Of a stretch of 64,000 bases of DNA, positions 26,561 to 39,179 are shown in pieces. The notes below the pieces were generated by a model. The model searched no databases and was not told the DNA's origin. It saw nothing but the letters and a program-made list of their open reading frames with translations. The position numbers and the translations under genes were made by a program. Source of the DNA: Rhizobium sp. Q54. Its GTDB lineage: Bacteria > Pseudomonadota > Alphaproteobacteria > Micropepsales > Micropepsaceae. Position 1 is the first letter of the stretch. The number at the start of each line of letters is the position of its first letter. The stretch is taken from NCBI GenBank assembly GCA_945860165.1, contig CAMAPL010000002.1, forward strand, positions 62,001-126,000. The letters run 5' to 3'.

Positions 26561-26872
26561 ATGACCCAACGCCGAAAAAGGGACTTGAGCGGTTCACTGG
26601 AAGTGGATGGCTGGCTGCTGCACTGGATCCTGAAAAGCGAGCAGATGTGGAGCGCCAAAGGTGACCATGTCGGGCTGCGCCTGTCGGTCGAGCGCAGCGA
26701 CGAAACTCGCCGTGAGCTGATCCTGGAATATCCGTTCCGCGAGTTGCCGGGTGGCCGCACGGCGCGGCCCGACATTGATCCCTACCGGCTGGCGGACGAC
26801 ATACGCGCCGCCATCGCGGCGGGCTGGAAGCCCAAATCGCGGGGCCGGCCTTTTACACTGATATGTGACTAA
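26561..26872 (+). CDS. Conserved hypothetical protein (103 residues)
   Basis: The protein is intact, basic and without signal peptide or membrane segment. It has alternating strand-like segments (SGSLEVDGWLLHWIL, then GLRLSVERSD, then ELILEYPF) followed by a helix (ADDIRAAIAAGWKP) ending in SRGRPFTL. The pattern of a small beta-sheet followed by PRLV-type helix and GW-P-SRG is one I associate with short alphaproteobacterial hypotheticals, but I cannot give it a function. It lies among decayed genes yet keeps a full frame, and its stop overlaps the end of the next remnant on the opposite strand. Confidence 0.65.
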   Translation: MTQRRKRDLSGSLEVDGWLLHWILKSEQMWSAKGDHVGLRLSVERSDETRRELILEYPFRELPGGRTARPDIDPYRLADDIRAAIAAGWKPKSRGRPFTLICD

Positions 26873-27368
26873 ACCAGCGGCTTGCATTCAGCGCCGGACG
26901 CCAAGACTTCCAGCTCATCCGCGACATCGGGCATTCGCGTCGCCCAGTCGCCGAACTTCTTCGGCGACAATACGTGCGAGTTGGCATACCAGGGATATTC
27001 GCAGTTCCCCAGCTGCGGCCATGTTCGGCCTGCGGTCAGGAACCAGACGGTCGTGCCCACGCTGGCGGCGGTCGGGGCGGACAATACCAGGGCCAGCGCC
27101 CGGGAGAGTGCCGCCGAACCGTCGATATCGTCCTTCAGGTCTAGACCTTCGATCTGGTGAATCTTGATGCCGAACTTTTCCTCGGCGCGGGCAATCTCGG
27201 CGGTGCAATCGCCATACTGAAGATTGATTAAGGTGACGCCCAGCGTCTGGAGGATCGGGCCCCATCGCGTCCAGCTGGCGCTTAAAACCGGCCACCCGGC
27301 CGGCATCCGGCAACAGGAAGGCTTCGTGACGGAAGTCCGCCAGGCTGCTCCGATAGACCTGCACCGCC
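26869..27368 (-). pseudogene. TPR/glycosyltransferase protein, C-terminal remnant
   Basis: Two frames together give SSLADFRHEAFLLPDAGRVAGFK, then RWGPILQTLGVTLINLQYGD, EEKFGIKIHQIEGLDLKDDI, GSAALSRALALVLSAPTAAS and VWFLTAGRTWPQLG. This is the C-terminal glycosyltransferase part of tetratricopeptide-repeat GT proteins. A frameshift and a loss of about 20 residues separate the two pieces near 27270, and the entire TPR part is missing. The fragment abuts the 3' end of the truncated MFS gene at about 27370, so the join is probably a deletion end point. Confidence 0.7.
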
Positions 27369-27371
27369 GTT

Positions 27372-28540
27372 GACAGCCCCGGCCAGAAAGGCAGCTGACG
27401 CGGCCCCGATCTGGTGGCTGGCGGAAATCAAGCCAAACAGGATGGGTGCCTTCCTGATGTCAAAGCTTTTGTTGGCGATGGCCAGGGTCGGCGGCACGGT
27501 GGCGATCCAGTCCAGGCCATAGAGCACCGCAAACAGCGACAGGCCAAAAAGGTGAAATCGGCGAAGGGCAGATAGATCAGCGATAGCCCGCGCAGCCCGT
27601 AATAGGCGAAGAGTAGTTTGCGCGGATCATAGCGGTCGGTCAGCGCGCCGGATGCGGTGGTCCCCACCAGGTCGAACAGGCCCATGATGGCCAGCAGGCT
27701 GCCCGCCGTCACTGCCGCCATGCCGTAGTCGTGGCACAGCGCAATCATGTGGGTTCCCACCAGCCCGTTGGTGGTGAAACCGCAGATAAAGAAGGTCGTC
27801 GATAGCAGCCAGAAATCGCGGTTGCGTGCGCCCTCGTCCAAGGCGGTCTTCAGCGGATTGCCGCTTTCGCGGATTTCGGTGGGATGACCCGGAGGAGCGT
27901 CGGCAAGAGCCGGAGCGACCAAAGAGGTGCCGCCGAACGGCGTTTGTCCGACATCGCCGGGCCATTCTGGCAGCAGGAAATAGACCACGGGAATCAGCAC
28001 CACCATGGCCAGCCCCACGCACAGCACCACCGGCTGCCAGCCGCCCGCCTGCGCAATGGCCGACAGGGCAGGAATGAAAACCAGCGTGCCGGTGGAGGTG
28101 GTGGCGGCGAACAGTCCCATCACCAGACCGCGATTGGTGACAAACCAGCGATTAACGATGGTGGCCGACAGGACGTTGGTGATGCAGCCCGAGCCGATGC
28201 CCGACACCAGTGCCCAGGTCACGATCAGGTGCCAGGCCTGGGTCATGAACAGGCTGGCGAAGCTGGACAGGCTCATCATCACCAGCGCCGCGATCACAGT
28301 AGCGCGGATGCCGAAACGCTGCATGGCGGCGGCGGAGAAGGGGCCGGTCAGGCCGAACAGAAAAACGCCGCAGGCCGCGGCGAAGCTGATCGCCCAGCGC
28401 GACCAGCCGAACGCCTGCTCCCATGGTACCATCAGGACGCCGGGGGTGGAGCGAAGGCCGGCCGCAGCCAGCAGCACCACAAAAATCACGGCAACCACAG
28501 CCATGGCGTAATGCCGTCCGAAGATGCTGCGCTGCTGCAT
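27372..28540 (-). pseudogene. MFS transporter, frameshifted and 3'-truncated
   Basis: From the start at 28540 the frame gives eight or nine membrane helices of a monocarboxylate-type (OFA/NarK-like) MFS carrier, including FGWSRWAISFAAACGVFLFG and a central loop of about 40 residues. After LSLIYLPFADFTF near 27550 the frame shifts by one base at a TTTTTGG run; the sequence then continues correctly as VLYGLDWIATVPPTLAIAN and GLISASHQIGAASAAFLAG. Similarity ends at about 27372, before the last helix would normally close, where the TPR/GT fragment begins. One shift could be a base-call error, but the truncation suggests a real pseudogene. Confidence 0.75.
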
Positions 28541-28690
28541 GTGTCCCTCGACATATCAAGCTTACACAATCGCCGCGCCGCGTGCTGCGCGGCCCCTGCA
28601 TGGGGCGCCTGCTTTTCGCAGCTGCACAGGCGCAGGCGCTGCGCCGGGTGCATGGACTAAGGCCAAAGCAGGCCCTACTTTCCTGCTTCC

Positions 28691-29275
28691 ATGGACGAAG
28701 AAACCCGTCTTTCCACTCTGACCTTCACCGCCTGGGCGGATGCTTTCTCGCGCGAAGAGGTCGACCGGATCGTGGCCTATGGTGACGGGCTGACGACGGA
28801 ACGGGCGGTGCCCCATGACATTCCCGCAAGCCGGCGGGCCGCGTTCGACAAGGTCCGCATCACCCACGCCGCCTGGATCGAACAGAAGGCCGAAACCAAA
28901 TGGCTTTTCGAGCGCATGCAGGGCGTGGCGCAGGCCCTGAACGACAGCACCTACCAGTATGACCTGCGCGGTTTTTCTGAGAATTTCCAGTACACCGTTT
29001 ATCACGGCGTGGAAGGCGGCCATTATGACTGGCACGTCGATCACGGGCCGATGCATGTGCAGCGCAAGCTTTCCATGACGGTGCAACTCAGTGATCATTC
29101 GGCGTATGAAGGTTGCAACCTAGAATTCTGCGCCAGCGGCAATATTGAAACCGCGCCGCGCGAGCAGGGCACGGTGATCGCTTTTCCATCCTATGTGCTG
29201 CACCGCGTGACACCCATCGTTTCGGGCACGCGCAGATCGTTGGTGGTCTGGACGACCGGACCGAAGTTCAAGTGA
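28691..29275 (+). CDS. 2OG-Fe(II) oxygenase family protein, paralogue 1
   Basis: The 194-residue protein has a double-stranded beta-helix of the prolyl-4-hydroxylase type. The iron triad is H and D in HYDWHVDHG and the distal His in SYVLHRVTPIVSG, with the 2-oxoglutarate-binding Arg in TRRSLVVW. FQYTVYHGVEGGHYDWH and LSMTVQLSDHSAYEGC(N)LEF are the most conserved blocks among the tandem copies. The N-terminal half is helical. It is the first of four paralogues on the same strand. Substrate unknown: possibilities are a protein side chain, a peptide or a small molecule. Confidence 0.87.
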   Translation: MDEETRLSTLTFTAWADAFSREEVDRIVAYGDGLTTERAVPHDIPASRRAAFDKVRITHAAWIEQKAETKWLFERMQGVAQALNDSTYQYDLRGFSENFQYTVYHGVEGGHYDWHVDHGPMHVQRKLSMTVQLSDHSAYEGCNLEFCASGNIETAPREQGTVIAFPSYVLHRVTPIVSGTRRSLVVWTTGPKFK

Positions 29276-29315
29276 AGAGCATTTCTGTATTAAAGTAATA
29301 TGCTGAGGGGCATGC

Positions 29316-29915
29316 ATGTCTGTTTTTAATCCCGCGACATCGCCAGTGATAATGAGCGGCGGGCTGATCGTCTGGGTGAATCTGTTCACGCCTGCGGAAC
29401 TGGACGCCATGGAGCAATATGGCGACCGGCTAACGCATGAGAAAGCCGAACTGTCCGCGAAGAATACCGGCCGTGACAGTATCCGCGTCACCAAGGTCGC
29501 CTGGGTGATGCGTAATGCGCAGACGGAAGCATTCTATGCAAAGGTGGAGGATGCGGTCCTGCGCCTGAACGCACAGTTCTTCCACTACGATCTTTCTGGG
29601 GTGGCGACGTTCCAGTACGCCCTTTATGACGGTGCGGAAGGCGGACGGTTCGACTGGCACAAGGATTACGGCAAGGATTACGGCGCCCCGGACCAGGAGC
29701 CTCGCAAATTGTCGCTGAGCATCCAGTTGAGCGATCCTGCAAAGTATGAAGGCTGCGAACTGGAAGTGCGCGCCGGCAATCTGACCGATGTCGCGCCCAG
29801 GACACGCGGCGCCGTCATCGCCTTCCCGTCTTATGTTCTGCACCGCGTGACACCGATAACATCAGGTGTACGAAAATCACTCGTTGTCTGGGCGGTGGGA
29901 CCGGAGTTCAAGTAA
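29316..29915 (+). CDS. 2OG-Fe(II) oxygenase family protein, paralogue 2
   Basis: The 199-residue protein has the same fold as its neighbours, with the triad in FDWHKDYG and SYVLHRVTPITSG and the cofactor Arg in VRKSLVVWAVGPEFK. Directly after the HxD motif the sequence KDYGKDYG is an exact 12-base tandem duplication (29661-29672 and 29673-29684), adding four residues to the loop beside the metal site relative to paralogues 1 and 3. It starts 40 bases after paralogue 1, behind its own AT-rich leader, and ends eight bases before paralogue 3. Confidence 0.87.
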   Translation: MSVFNPATSPVIMSGGLIVWVNLFTPAELDAMEQYGDRLTHEKAELSAKNTGRDSIRVTKVAWVMRNAQTEAFYAKVEDAVLRLNAQFFHYDLSGVATFQYALYDGAEGGRFDWHKDYGKDYGAPDQEPRKLSLSIQLSDPAKYEGCELEVRAGNLTDVAPRTRGAVIAFPSYVLHRVTPITSGVRKSLVVWAVGPEFK

Positions 29916-29923
29916 GCCCTGGA

Positions 29924-30535
29924 ATGACAACGTTAAAAGGCCATCTAATGTTATTATCGCCGCTTGCGACCTCGCCTGTGCCCGTAGGCGAATTTGTCCA
30001 GTGGGAAGATGTTTTCAGCGCCGCCGAACTGGCAGCGATCGGAAAATATGGCGATGGCTTGGCGCAGCAGAAGGCGGACCTGTCAGGCCGCCGTGCCGTT
30101 TACGACACGATCCGCATCACCAATGTCGCATGGATCGAACGCAGGCCGGAGACAGCCTGGCTCACTGCCCGCCTGGAACAGATTGTGCTGCGGCTCAACG
30201 ATCAATTCTTCGGCTATGAATTATACGGGCTGGCGGAAAGTTTTCAGTACACCGTCTATCATGGCGGCGAGGGCGGACATTTCGACTGGCACAAGGATCA
30301 TGGCAATACGCGCGAAGAACCGCGCAAAATCTCCCTGAGCCTGCAATTGTCGGAAAGCGCCGCCTATGAAGGCTGCGAACTGGAATTCCATTCCGGCGAT
30401 ACCGTGCAGGCCGCGCCCAAAAAGCGCGGAACTCTGATCGCCTTTCCTTCTTATGTGTTGCATCGCGTCACCCCCATTGTTTCGGGCATCCGCAAATCAC
30501 TGGTGATCTGGGCGGCGGGTCCGGAGTTTCGATGA
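29924..30535 (+). CDS. 2OG-Fe(II) oxygenase family protein, paralogue 3
   Basis: The 203-residue protein keeps the triad in FDWHKDHG and SYVLHRVTPIVSG with Arg in IRKSLVIWAAGPEFR. Its N-terminus is longer; ATG 29948 (MLLSPLATSPVPVGEF) is an alternative start. It is closest to paralogue 2 in the C-terminal half (PRKISLSLQLSESAAYEGCELEF). Its TGA overlaps the ATG of the decayed paralogue 4, showing that the array was once read as one operon. Confidence 0.87.
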   Translation: MTTLKGHLMLLSPLATSPVPVGEFVQWEDVFSAAELAAIGKYGDGLAQQKADLSGRRAVYDTIRITNVAWIERRPETAWLTARLEQIVLRLNDQFFGYELYGLAESFQYTVYHGGEGGHFDWHKDHGNTREEPRKISLSLQLSESAAYEGCELEFHSGDTVQAAPKKRGTLIAFPSYVLHRVTPIVSGIRKSLVIWAAGPEFR

Positions 30536-31109
30536 ATCTGACTGTTCCCGTCGTACAGGGGCCTTTCCTGGCCTGGGAAGGCGCGCTCAGGCCGGCGGAA
30601 GTGGGCGCCATTATCGCCTATAGCGATGCGCAGATACTTCAATAAGCGCAGAGCGCGGTCTAGCGCGCCGATCTCGAGGTCGTGCACATCATCCATCTCG
30701 CCTGACTTGAGCGCAATGCCGAAACCGAAAAATTCTATGAGCGACTCGCGTAGATCGTGCTGCGTCTCAATACCCAGTTCCACCGCTTTGCGCTGACCGG
30801 GCTCGAGAATCTGCAATGCACGGTCTATGACGGCAAGGAAGGCGGCCATTACGACTGACACATCGATTATGGCCGCAACAGCCACAAGCCGCGCAAGATC
30901 TCGCTGATCGTTCAACTCAGCGATCCATCGCACTATGAAGGCTGTGACCTGCAGTTCCAGATCGGCAGCGGGGTCACCACCGCGCCCAGGGCCGCGCGGC
31001 ACGGTGATCGCCTCCCCGTCCTTCTTCCTGCACCGGGTGACGCCGCTGACGGCGGGGGGGGGGGCGCAAGTCGCTGGTCCTCTGGGCCACGGGGCCGGAA
31101 TTCCGCTAA
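30532..31109 (+). pseudogene. 2OG-Fe(II) oxygenase, paralogue 4 (decayed)
   Basis: The frame opens with MNLTVPVVQGPFLAWEGALRP and follows the family (LERNAETEKFYERLA, LTGLENLQCTVYDGKEGGHYD, HIDYGRNSHKPRKISLIVQ, SDPSHYEGCDLQFQ, then WATGPEFR at the end). It contains stop codons after AQILQ, after AQSAV, after IIHLA, after YERLA and within the iron motif, where the Trp of YDWHID is TGA. Shifts of frame occur near 30985 and at a run of ten G near 31055. This many independent lesions cannot be sequencing error alone; the gene is dead. The downstream gene gpmI is intact. Confidence 0.9.
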
Positions 31110-31158: not shown

Positions 31159-32697
31159 ATGACTGCGCCGCGACCCGCTCTTTTGTGCATTCTCGACGGC
31201 TGGGGCTGGCGCCCGGAACCAGCGGCTGACAATGCCATCGCCGCGGCCCGCACCCCCCATTACACCAAGCTGCTGGCGGAATGCCCGCACGCGCTTCTGG
31301 CAACCTCGGGAAGCGCGGTCGGCCTTCCCAAAGGCCAGATGGGCAATTCCGAAGTCGGTCACATGAATATCGGGGCGGGACGGGTCGTGGCCCAGGACCT
31401 GCCGCGTATCGATGTCGCCATCGAGGATGGTAGTCTTGCGCGCCTTCCGGTTCTTCTGGCGCTTATAGCGAAAGCCAAAGGCGCAAAACGCGCGGTGCAT
31501 GTGATGGGTTTGCTGTCGCCAGGCGGGGTGCATTCCCATCAGGATCACATCGCCGCGCTGGTGAAAATCGCCAGTGCTGCCGGCGTGCCGGTGTTCGTCC
31601 ACGCCGTCCTGGATGGGCGCGACACCCCGCCCAAAAGCGCGAGCGTGTTTCTCGAAAAATTCCTCAGCGACATTGCCGGCATGGCGGGCGTCCGGCTGGC
31701 GAGCCTGTCGGGCCGCTACTATGCCATGGACCGCGACAAGCGCTGGGACCGGGTGGAGAAATGCCATGACGCGATCATCGATGCGTCAGCCCGCCACTTC
31801 TACGATGCGCAAGCCGCGCTGGACATATCTTACGCCGAAAACATCACCGACGAATTCGTGCTGCCCTGCGTGCTCGGCGACTATGCCGGTGTCGAGGATG
31901 GCGACGTCTTTCTGTTCGCAAATTTCCGCGCCGACCGGGCGCGGGAGATTTGCGCTGCGCTGCTTGATCCGGGATTTGACGGCTTTGCGCGCGGGCGCGT
32001 CGTGACATGGAGCGGCGCAGCGGGACTCACCGAATATTCCGACAAGCTCAAGCCGCTGATGCAGGCGGTGTTTGCGCTGGAAGATGTGCGCGAAACGCTG
32101 GGCGAGGTTGTCGCCAGCCATCACATGAAACAGCTGCGCATCGCCGAGACCGAGAAATACGCCCATGTCACCTTCTTCCTGAATGGCGGGCGCGAGGATG
32201 TGTTTGACGGCGAGGACCGCATCATGGTGCCCAGCCCGCATGTCGCCACCTATGATCACAAGCCGGAAATGAGCGCCTTCGAAGTCACCGAAAAGCTGGA
32301 AGAGGCGATTCTAGGTGGTCAATACGACCTGATCGTCTGCAACTATGCCAATCCCGACATGGTGGGCCATACCGGCATCATGAGCGCCGCCATCAAGGCG
32401 GTGGATACGATCGACATCTGCATCGGTCGCCTGGTCGCGGCGCTGAAGAAGACGGGCGGCGTGATGCTGCTGACCGCCGATCACGGCAATATCGAGATGA
32501 TGCAGAACCCCGACACGGGCGAGCCTTACACCGCCCACACCATACTGGATGTTCCGGTCATCGCCTTTGGCGCGCCTGCGGGCACGAAACTGGAGAATGG
32601 CCGCCTTGCCGATGTCGCGCCCACCTTGCTGGCATTGATGGGATTGGAAAAGCCGCAGGCGATGACAGGCCATTCGTTGATCGCGCCAGCTGCGTGA
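31159..32697 (+). CDS. gpmI: 2,3-bisphosphoglycerate-independent phosphoglycerate mutase
   Basis: The 512-residue two-domain metalloenzyme interconverts 3- and 2-phosphoglycerate. The phosphatase-like domain has LCILDGWGW and the catalytic Ser in GQMGNSEVGHMNIGAGR, plus the metal ligands in NYANPDMVGHTG and LLTADHGNIEMM. The transferase domain holds HVMGLLSPGGVHSHQDH and FVHAVLDGRDTPPKS. Length is standard. Its stop overlaps the GTG start of envC (GTGA), matching the gpmI-envC-ctpA order found in many proteobacteria. Confidence 0.96.
   Translation: MTAPRPALLCILDGWGWRPEPAADNAIAAARTPHYTKLLAECPHALLATSGSAVGLPKGQMGNSEVGHMNIGAGRVVAQDLPRIDVAIEDGSLARLPVLLALIAKAKGAKRAVHVMGLLSPGGVHSHQDHIAALVKIASAAGVPVFVHAVLDGRDTPPKSASVFLEKFLSDIAGMAGVRLASLSGRYYAMDRDKRWDRVEKCHDAIIDASARHFYDAQAALDISYAENITDEFVLPCVLGDYAGVEDGDVFLFANFRADRAREICAALLDPGFDGFARGRVVTWSGAAGLTEYSDKLKPLMQAVFALEDVRETLGEVVASHHMKQLRIAETEKYAHVTFFLNGGREDVFDGEDRIMVPSPHVATYDHKPEMSAFEVTEKLEEAILGGQYDLIVCNYANPDMVGHTGIMSAAIKAVDTIDICIGRLVAALKKTGGVMLLTADHGNIEMMQNPDTGEPYTAHTILDVPVIAFGAPAGTKLENGRLADVAPTLLALMGLEKPQAMTGHSLIAPAA

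Positions 32698-39102: not shown

Positions 39103-39179
<77 letters not shown>

Follow-up and report, generated by a model that had tools for sequence, protein, structure and literature searches.

A positionally conserved tandem array of 2OG-Fe(II) oxygenase paralogues upstream of gpmI in an alphaproteobacterial genus

By predicted fold, the closest described relatives of the array analysed here are the P. putida prolyl 4-hydroxylase PPHD (PDB 4j25 and 4iw3) and the PHD2 group. PPHD hydroxylates EF-Tu, with an effect given as unknown in a review (PMC4543633). The bicyclomycin cluster (bcmA-G and bcmT) contains five 2OG dioxygenases and an MFS gene (PMC5930311). Cyanophage genomes carry up to five 2OG-Fe(II) oxygenase genes each, and modulation of 2OG or DNA repair has been offered as a role for them (PMC3037559). 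The PiuC and YbiX enzymes (PDB 9ghl, 9qn0-9qn4 and 3dkq) are the nearest relatives of known structure by sequence, over the catalytic half.

We analysed a stretch of 64,000 nucleotides (the window) from Rhizobium sp. Q54, which contains a tandem array of small 2OG-Fe(II) oxygenase genes. The array copies resemble PPHD and PHD2 in predicted fold and in having a single small catalytic domain, but differ in their low identity (about 22% in the structural alignment) and in occurring as up to five tandem paralogues. The likeness to the bicyclomycin cluster lies in the presence of up to five 2OG oxygenases plus an MFS gene, although here the MFS gene looks like the older neighbour, and the largest arrays have it only in broken form or have lost it. 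The oxygenases of phrog_61, from cyanophages and freshwater phages, are about 29-46% identical to array copies among the matches listed, but unlike the array they are rarely tandem, two family members being found in only 1 of 80 viral loci (loci of up to about 8.6 kb). With PiuC and YbiX the copies share PF13640, but they lack PKHD_C, score below every NCBIfam equivalog cut-off and have no recognised TonB receptor beside them. The array is a known kind of enzyme in an uncharacterised arrangement. No description of such an array was found in the literature searched, mostly outside subscription journals, which is weak evidence of absence.

Genes of the array and their enzyme class

The initial annotation described four consecutive same-strand genes, and these are present on the + strand at 28691-31109. 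Copy 1 (28691-29275, 194 aa, HVD...H and arginine intact), copy 2 (29316-29915, 199 aa, HKD...H and a long loop following HxD) and copy 3 (29948-30535, about 195 aa, HKD...H) occupy array positions 1, 2 and 3. Copy 4 (30532-31109), at position E of the five-gene arrays, is a pseudogene with five in-frame stops and two frame changes, in agreement with the earlier count of three copies with intact catalytic residues. The open frame of copy 3 extends from 29924 to 30535 (203 aa); an alternative ATG at 29948, giving 195 aa, is the likelier start because the copy 3 orthologues begin MLL or MLS. The spacing of 40 bases, 8 bases and then an overlap was also read correctly, except that the 8 bases become 32 with the later copy 3 start; the overlap consists of the copy 4 start at 30532 and the copy 3 stop, as ATGA. 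One of the five stops in copy 4 falls on the conserved W before HxD, and the two frame changes sit near the 3′ end. Despite this decay, copy 4 is alignable over its whole length (tblastn E 1e-35 to 3e-40), and in the tree it groups with intact genes of three congeners (G086, G092 and G012).

The constant downstream flank is gpmI (31159-32697, + strand), encoding a 2,3-bisphosphoglycerate-independent phosphoglycerate mutase with PF01676 and PF06415 domains. Upstream lies a monocarboxylate-transporter-like MFS gene (27360-28540, - strand) that carries a frameshift and lacks its 3′ end; compared with the 419-residue protein of a relative, one open frame spans residues 1-351 and another residues 321-371. 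It had been called decayed, rightly, and convergent, wrongly: it starts at 28540 on the - strand and the array starts at 28691 on the + strand, and so the two are divergent. In the intergenic region between them (28541-28690), a CCTAYTTTC-like stretch just 5′ of copy 1 recurs, by eye, in several relatives. A short open reading frame at 26869-27306 clusters with proteins of 495-583 aa in relatives, of TPR type where scanned; it is a probable remnant, which points to erosion of the DNA that precedes the array. Recent horizontal gain of the array was considered and set aside: GC at the array is 0.60-0.61, as against 0.59-0.65 elsewhere in the window, and the sole tRNA of the window is at 39103.

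All three intact copies exceed the curated PF13640 (2OG-FeII_Oxy_3) cut-off of 27 bits, with 47.3, 44.9 and 49.5 bits for copies 1, 2 and 3, respectively. Identity to copy 1 is 46% for copy 2 and 53% for copy 3, and copies 2 and 3 share 56% identity with each other. Every one of the 27 alignment rows has the HxD...H triad, an arginine ten residues further on and a terminal W; from the superfamily, we take the triad to bind iron and the arginine to bind 2OG.

An AlphaFold model of copy 3 (pLDDT 88.0, pTM 0.85) predicts a prolyl-hydroxylase-like fold. The best fold match was the P. putida prolyl 4-hydroxylase 4j25 (Z 19.9, rmsd 2.5, 171 aligned residues, 22% identity), followed by 4iw3, the same enzyme with EF-Tu (Z 19.8, rmsd 3.1, 183 aligned residues), and then PHD2 entries, where matches within about 1 Z are to be read as tied. 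Small-molecule hydroxylases with related folds exist, and a shared fold shows no function. Model confidence was lowest in the stretch after HxD, with its minimum at residues 127-129, a pattern that would fit a mobile loop. In sequence, the closest proteins of solved structure were PiuC-type PKHD enzymes (E 6e-14 to 1e-12, catalytic half only), and a sequence profile search returned PiuC plus weak EctD and P4H entries, with 4j25 absent.

Distribution, orthology and selection in congeners

The family was sought in congeners with a 27-member profile (A2, E <= 1e-35) and was found in 21 of 69, the window's genome (G000) counted. Among 385 genomes drawn from the class, 25 matched, two of them (G000 and G024) from the array genus. 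A family gene lies directly upstream of gpmI in 17 of the 69 congeners (G000, G001, G006, G008, G012, G015, G016, G017, G035, G036, G067, G077, G085, G086, G088, G090 and G092). There was a gpmI match in 37 congeners, and the locus was read in 33 of these, 17 with the array and 16 without it, leaving out G064, G070, G072 and G087. The number of intact copies per gpmI locus ranges from one (G015 and G006) to five (G086 and G092), on gene calls made in relatives with rough in-house scripts and with the arrays of G016, G012 and G077 cut by contig ends.

In five relatives (G004, G027, G030, G071 and G078), flgI directly adjoins gpmI without an MFS gene or array, and in six others (G009, G028, G069, G079, G081 and G084) it is the MFS gene that directly adjoins gpmI, again without an array at this place. 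The most economical history would be an original flgI-gpmI arrangement, insertion of the MFS gene between the two, and then arrival of the array between the MFS gene and gpmI. It was also observed that flgI and flgJ are kept beside the MFS gene and gpmI in relatives (L036, L044 and L054), and that flagellar genes are absent from the window's locus (26900-31109).

The phylogenetic tree comprised 76 rows, after removal of fragments of less than 140 residues and of the most distant sequences (L111 and L114-L121); some of its long branches make outgroup joins unsafe. The family of the genus stands apart from homologues of other families (support 97/82). The first genes of arrays fall for the most part in a single clade (20 rows, 96/90), and the genes downstream of them for the most part in another (35 rows, 98/98), which indicates that the gene pair is old. 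Solitary family copies in congeners branch at several points, many of them beside position 2. The copies are one subfamily, which contradicts the possibility that unrelated subfamilies had come together by chance.

Within the group of G000, G086, G092 and G035, positions 1, 2, 3 and E each hold one gene per genome where present. The orthologues of position 1 are in G086, G092 and G012, and those of positions 2 and 3 are in G086, G092 and G035. A further position, B, is intact in G086 and G092, missing from the window, and present only as a scar in G035, where 84 bases that match the beginning of position 1 are joined directly to the 3′ part of position B. These groupings show the array positions to be orthologous between species and, on the same comparison, the window's array has lost one position (B) and inactivated another (E).

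Nei-Gojobori dN/dS was calculated on seven chosen groups, giving 22 oxygenase pairs and 12 control pairs. All 22 oxygenase pairs, over five positions, fell within 0.13-0.42, with 0.16-0.42 at position 1, 0.13-0.23 at position 2 and 0.20-0.31 at position 3; these values are rough because dS was 0.5-1.2. The control genes gpmI and ctpA (six pairs each) gave 0.14-0.18 and 0.08-0.14, respectively. By this measure every intact position is shown to be under purifying selection; the array is real and maintained by selection.

The positions also differ in sequence near the active site. In the middle of HxD, positions 1 and B have V, positions 2 and 3 have K or R, and position E has I. The loop after HxD, compared with read-through X letters removed, reaches its greatest length in position 2; it is of intermediate length in positions 3 and E and shortest in positions 1 and B. 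Because dN/dS is 0.13-0.42 everywhere and the loop differs by position, the copies have probably specialised, and the array is probably a set of specialised hydroxylases. The repeated duplication with diversification proposed in the initial annotation is thus borne out by orthologous positions, purifying selection on each and a position-specific loop, whereas its further suggestions of related substrates and of an undescribed enzymatic system are not.

Neighbouring genes and competing explanations

A survey of neighbourhoods, over array loci and solitary copies, was made for a conserved partner gene and yielded no constant one. As had been noted for the window, no obvious substrate gene is adjacent, and none travels with the array in the loci compared; nor does an ordinary known biosynthetic cluster surround the array in the relatives examined. 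The neighbours of solitary congener copies are NAD-glutamate dehydrogenase and MipA (L040), enoyl-CoA hydratase (L041), LigD in the region (L048), glutamine synthetase (L080) and TonB receptors (L035), and those of other alphaproteobacterial relatives are likewise varied. The L035 copy is the fifth family member in the window's own genome (L035:9533-10120, - strand, G000:C3) and lies between two TonB-dependent receptor genes, beside a true PiuC gene.

The MFS gene is a usual neighbour of the array and looks like a bystander, but it bears on the possibility that the array hydroxylases tailor a small molecule in succession, with the divergent MFS protein as its carrier, in the manner of bicyclomycin. 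For this speak the bicyclomycin precedent itself (PMC5930311), the five intact copies in G086 and G092, and the resemblance of the MFS protein to a lactate transporter, its nearest known structure. In 13 of the 17 array loci, the contig with the array also carries, in divergent orientation, the MFS gene or what is left of it; the gene is on another contig in G012, G016 and G077, and there is none in G086. In a first sample of 23 congeners, the same 9 carried both the family and the MFS gene, and over all 69 congeners 17 had both, 4 the family only, 5 the MFS gene only and 43 neither (Fisher p 1.8e-8, a value that ignores kinship).

However, four of the six relatives with the MFS gene beside gpmI and no array there lack the family anywhere in the genome, and the occurrence of these six loci makes the MFS gene probably the older neighbour. 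Moreover, in the three genomes whose arrays have, or once had, the highest copy numbers (G000, G092 and G086), the MFS gene is broken, missing or reduced to a remnant. The annotated loci show no scaffold enzyme next to the array, and a search for cyclodipeptide synthase found none in 8 genomes, although it was equally silent on control genomes. Tailoring of a small molecule is thus somewhat unlikely, and the MFS protein was rejected as a functional partner on the basis of the six array-less MFS-gpmI loci and the five MFS-bearing genomes without the family among the 69 congeners.

A second alternative is that the array is a passive, decaying cluster of paralogues, in which duplicates without distinct roles persist in a small genome through dosage or drift. 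Decay is evident: the window has a dead copy 4 and lacks one position, a deletion has left its scar in G035, family copies with stops occur in G017, G024 and G088, and the flanking MFS gene is decaying too. Against this stand the purifying selection on each intact position and the orthology kept between species, and the divergence to about 50% identity together with position-specific loops speaks against dosage. We consider passive persistence distinctly unlikely.

A role in iron uptake, as for PiuC-like PKHD hydroxylases that occur with TonB-dependent siderophore receptors, is improbable: although PiuC-type enzymes are the nearest solved proteins by sequence and the fifth family copy lies between TonB receptor genes, copies 1-3 score 60.7, 51 and 53 bits with the best NCBIfam equivalog model against its cut-off of 143 (the other three models being further below), PKHD_C (PF18331) was not found in copies 1-3 and is carried by the true PiuC of the same genome, and a TonB receptor gene was recognised beside the array in none of the loci compared. 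Membership of PiuC was therefore rejected on score, domain and genomic context.

Relatives outside the genus and the preferred explanation

Distant relatives of the family were found in 30 of 72,556 plasmid records, 348 of 50,697 phage records and at least 578 viral contigs. On plasmids, a Sulfitobacter relative adjoins osmoregulated glucan genes, and a Sphingobium relative (L226:4263-6540) directly follows a ShlB/FhaC/HecB two-partner secretion gene. A three-copy same-strand array occurs in G446 and G282 (L102 and L103), which belong to another alphaproteobacterial family; its likeness to the present array is that of tandem same-strand copies of the same broad family. Its copies group apart from the array genus with support of 100/100, which indicates a separate expansion. 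It adjoins genes for a glyoxalase, a low-molecular-weight phosphatase and an SBF-family transporter, a trio that we take to be arsenic-operon-like.

Among phage families, the phrog_61 profile matched array copies with E values of 8.2e-29, 1.1e-24 and 1.6e-24, only over about positions 440-631 of its 689. In L138 (391-5716), which we infer to be a freshwater-type phage contig, the gene order is a collagen-repeat tail fibre, phrog_7084, the oxygenase, phrog_9155 and a PF13759 oxygenase, possibly a fibre-modification cassette. The other annotated viral locus, L172, adds a glycosyltransferase, and in phage S-SSM5 the oxygenase is preceded at about 6 kb by a fibre gene and followed at about 2 kb by a leprecan-like gene. 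Strict Gly-X-Y runs of at least 8 triplets, counted without a control set, were present in 13 of 80 viral loci and in 11 of the 33 clusters formed at 90% identity. No such run occurred in the largest viral cluster (36 loci), yet L138, a member by its match row, has a PF01391 match. These few annotated loci, again without a control set, suggest that the phage relatives hydroxylate structural (fibre) proteins. A collagen-like substrate for the host array was rejected, and the phage-fibre clue fails here, since PF01391 collagen repeats were found in 0 of 21 family-bearing congeners versus 10 of 48 others (Fisher p 0.026).

Taken together, the enzyme class and the history of the array are well supported, and we infer catalysis, specialisation and a protein or peptide substrate. 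The explanation that we prefer, and hold with moderate confidence, is a lineage-specific tandem expansion of small Fe(II)/2OG prolyl-hydroxylase-like hydroxylases whose likeliest target is a protein or peptide side chain. At least two copies would already have stood upstream of gpmI, between it and the older MFS gene, before most of the array-bearing species split. In the window's lineage the array would have grown to five positions and also have shrunk as genes were deleted or decayed. We expect every intact copy to bind Fe(II) via HxD...H and 2OG via the arginine, to oxidise 2OG to succinate and CO2, and to hydroxylate a C-H bond of its own substrate, with the position-specific loop after HxD probably setting the target. 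It is conceivable, as a tentative and rather unlikely extension, that the five positions form a cooperating set that hydroxylates different sites on one host protein, or related proteins or peptides. Such a set would be a multi-enzyme hydroxylation system in small-genome alphaproteobacteria that is echoed by the multi-copy oxygenases of aquatic phages.

Tandem paralogues conserved by position constitute a natural specificity series, in which one catalytic core is combined with different loops. Knowledge of their targets would show whether sets of hydroxylases serve bacteria as systems for protein modification, and it may also shed light on why aquatic phages carry many relatives of these enzymes.
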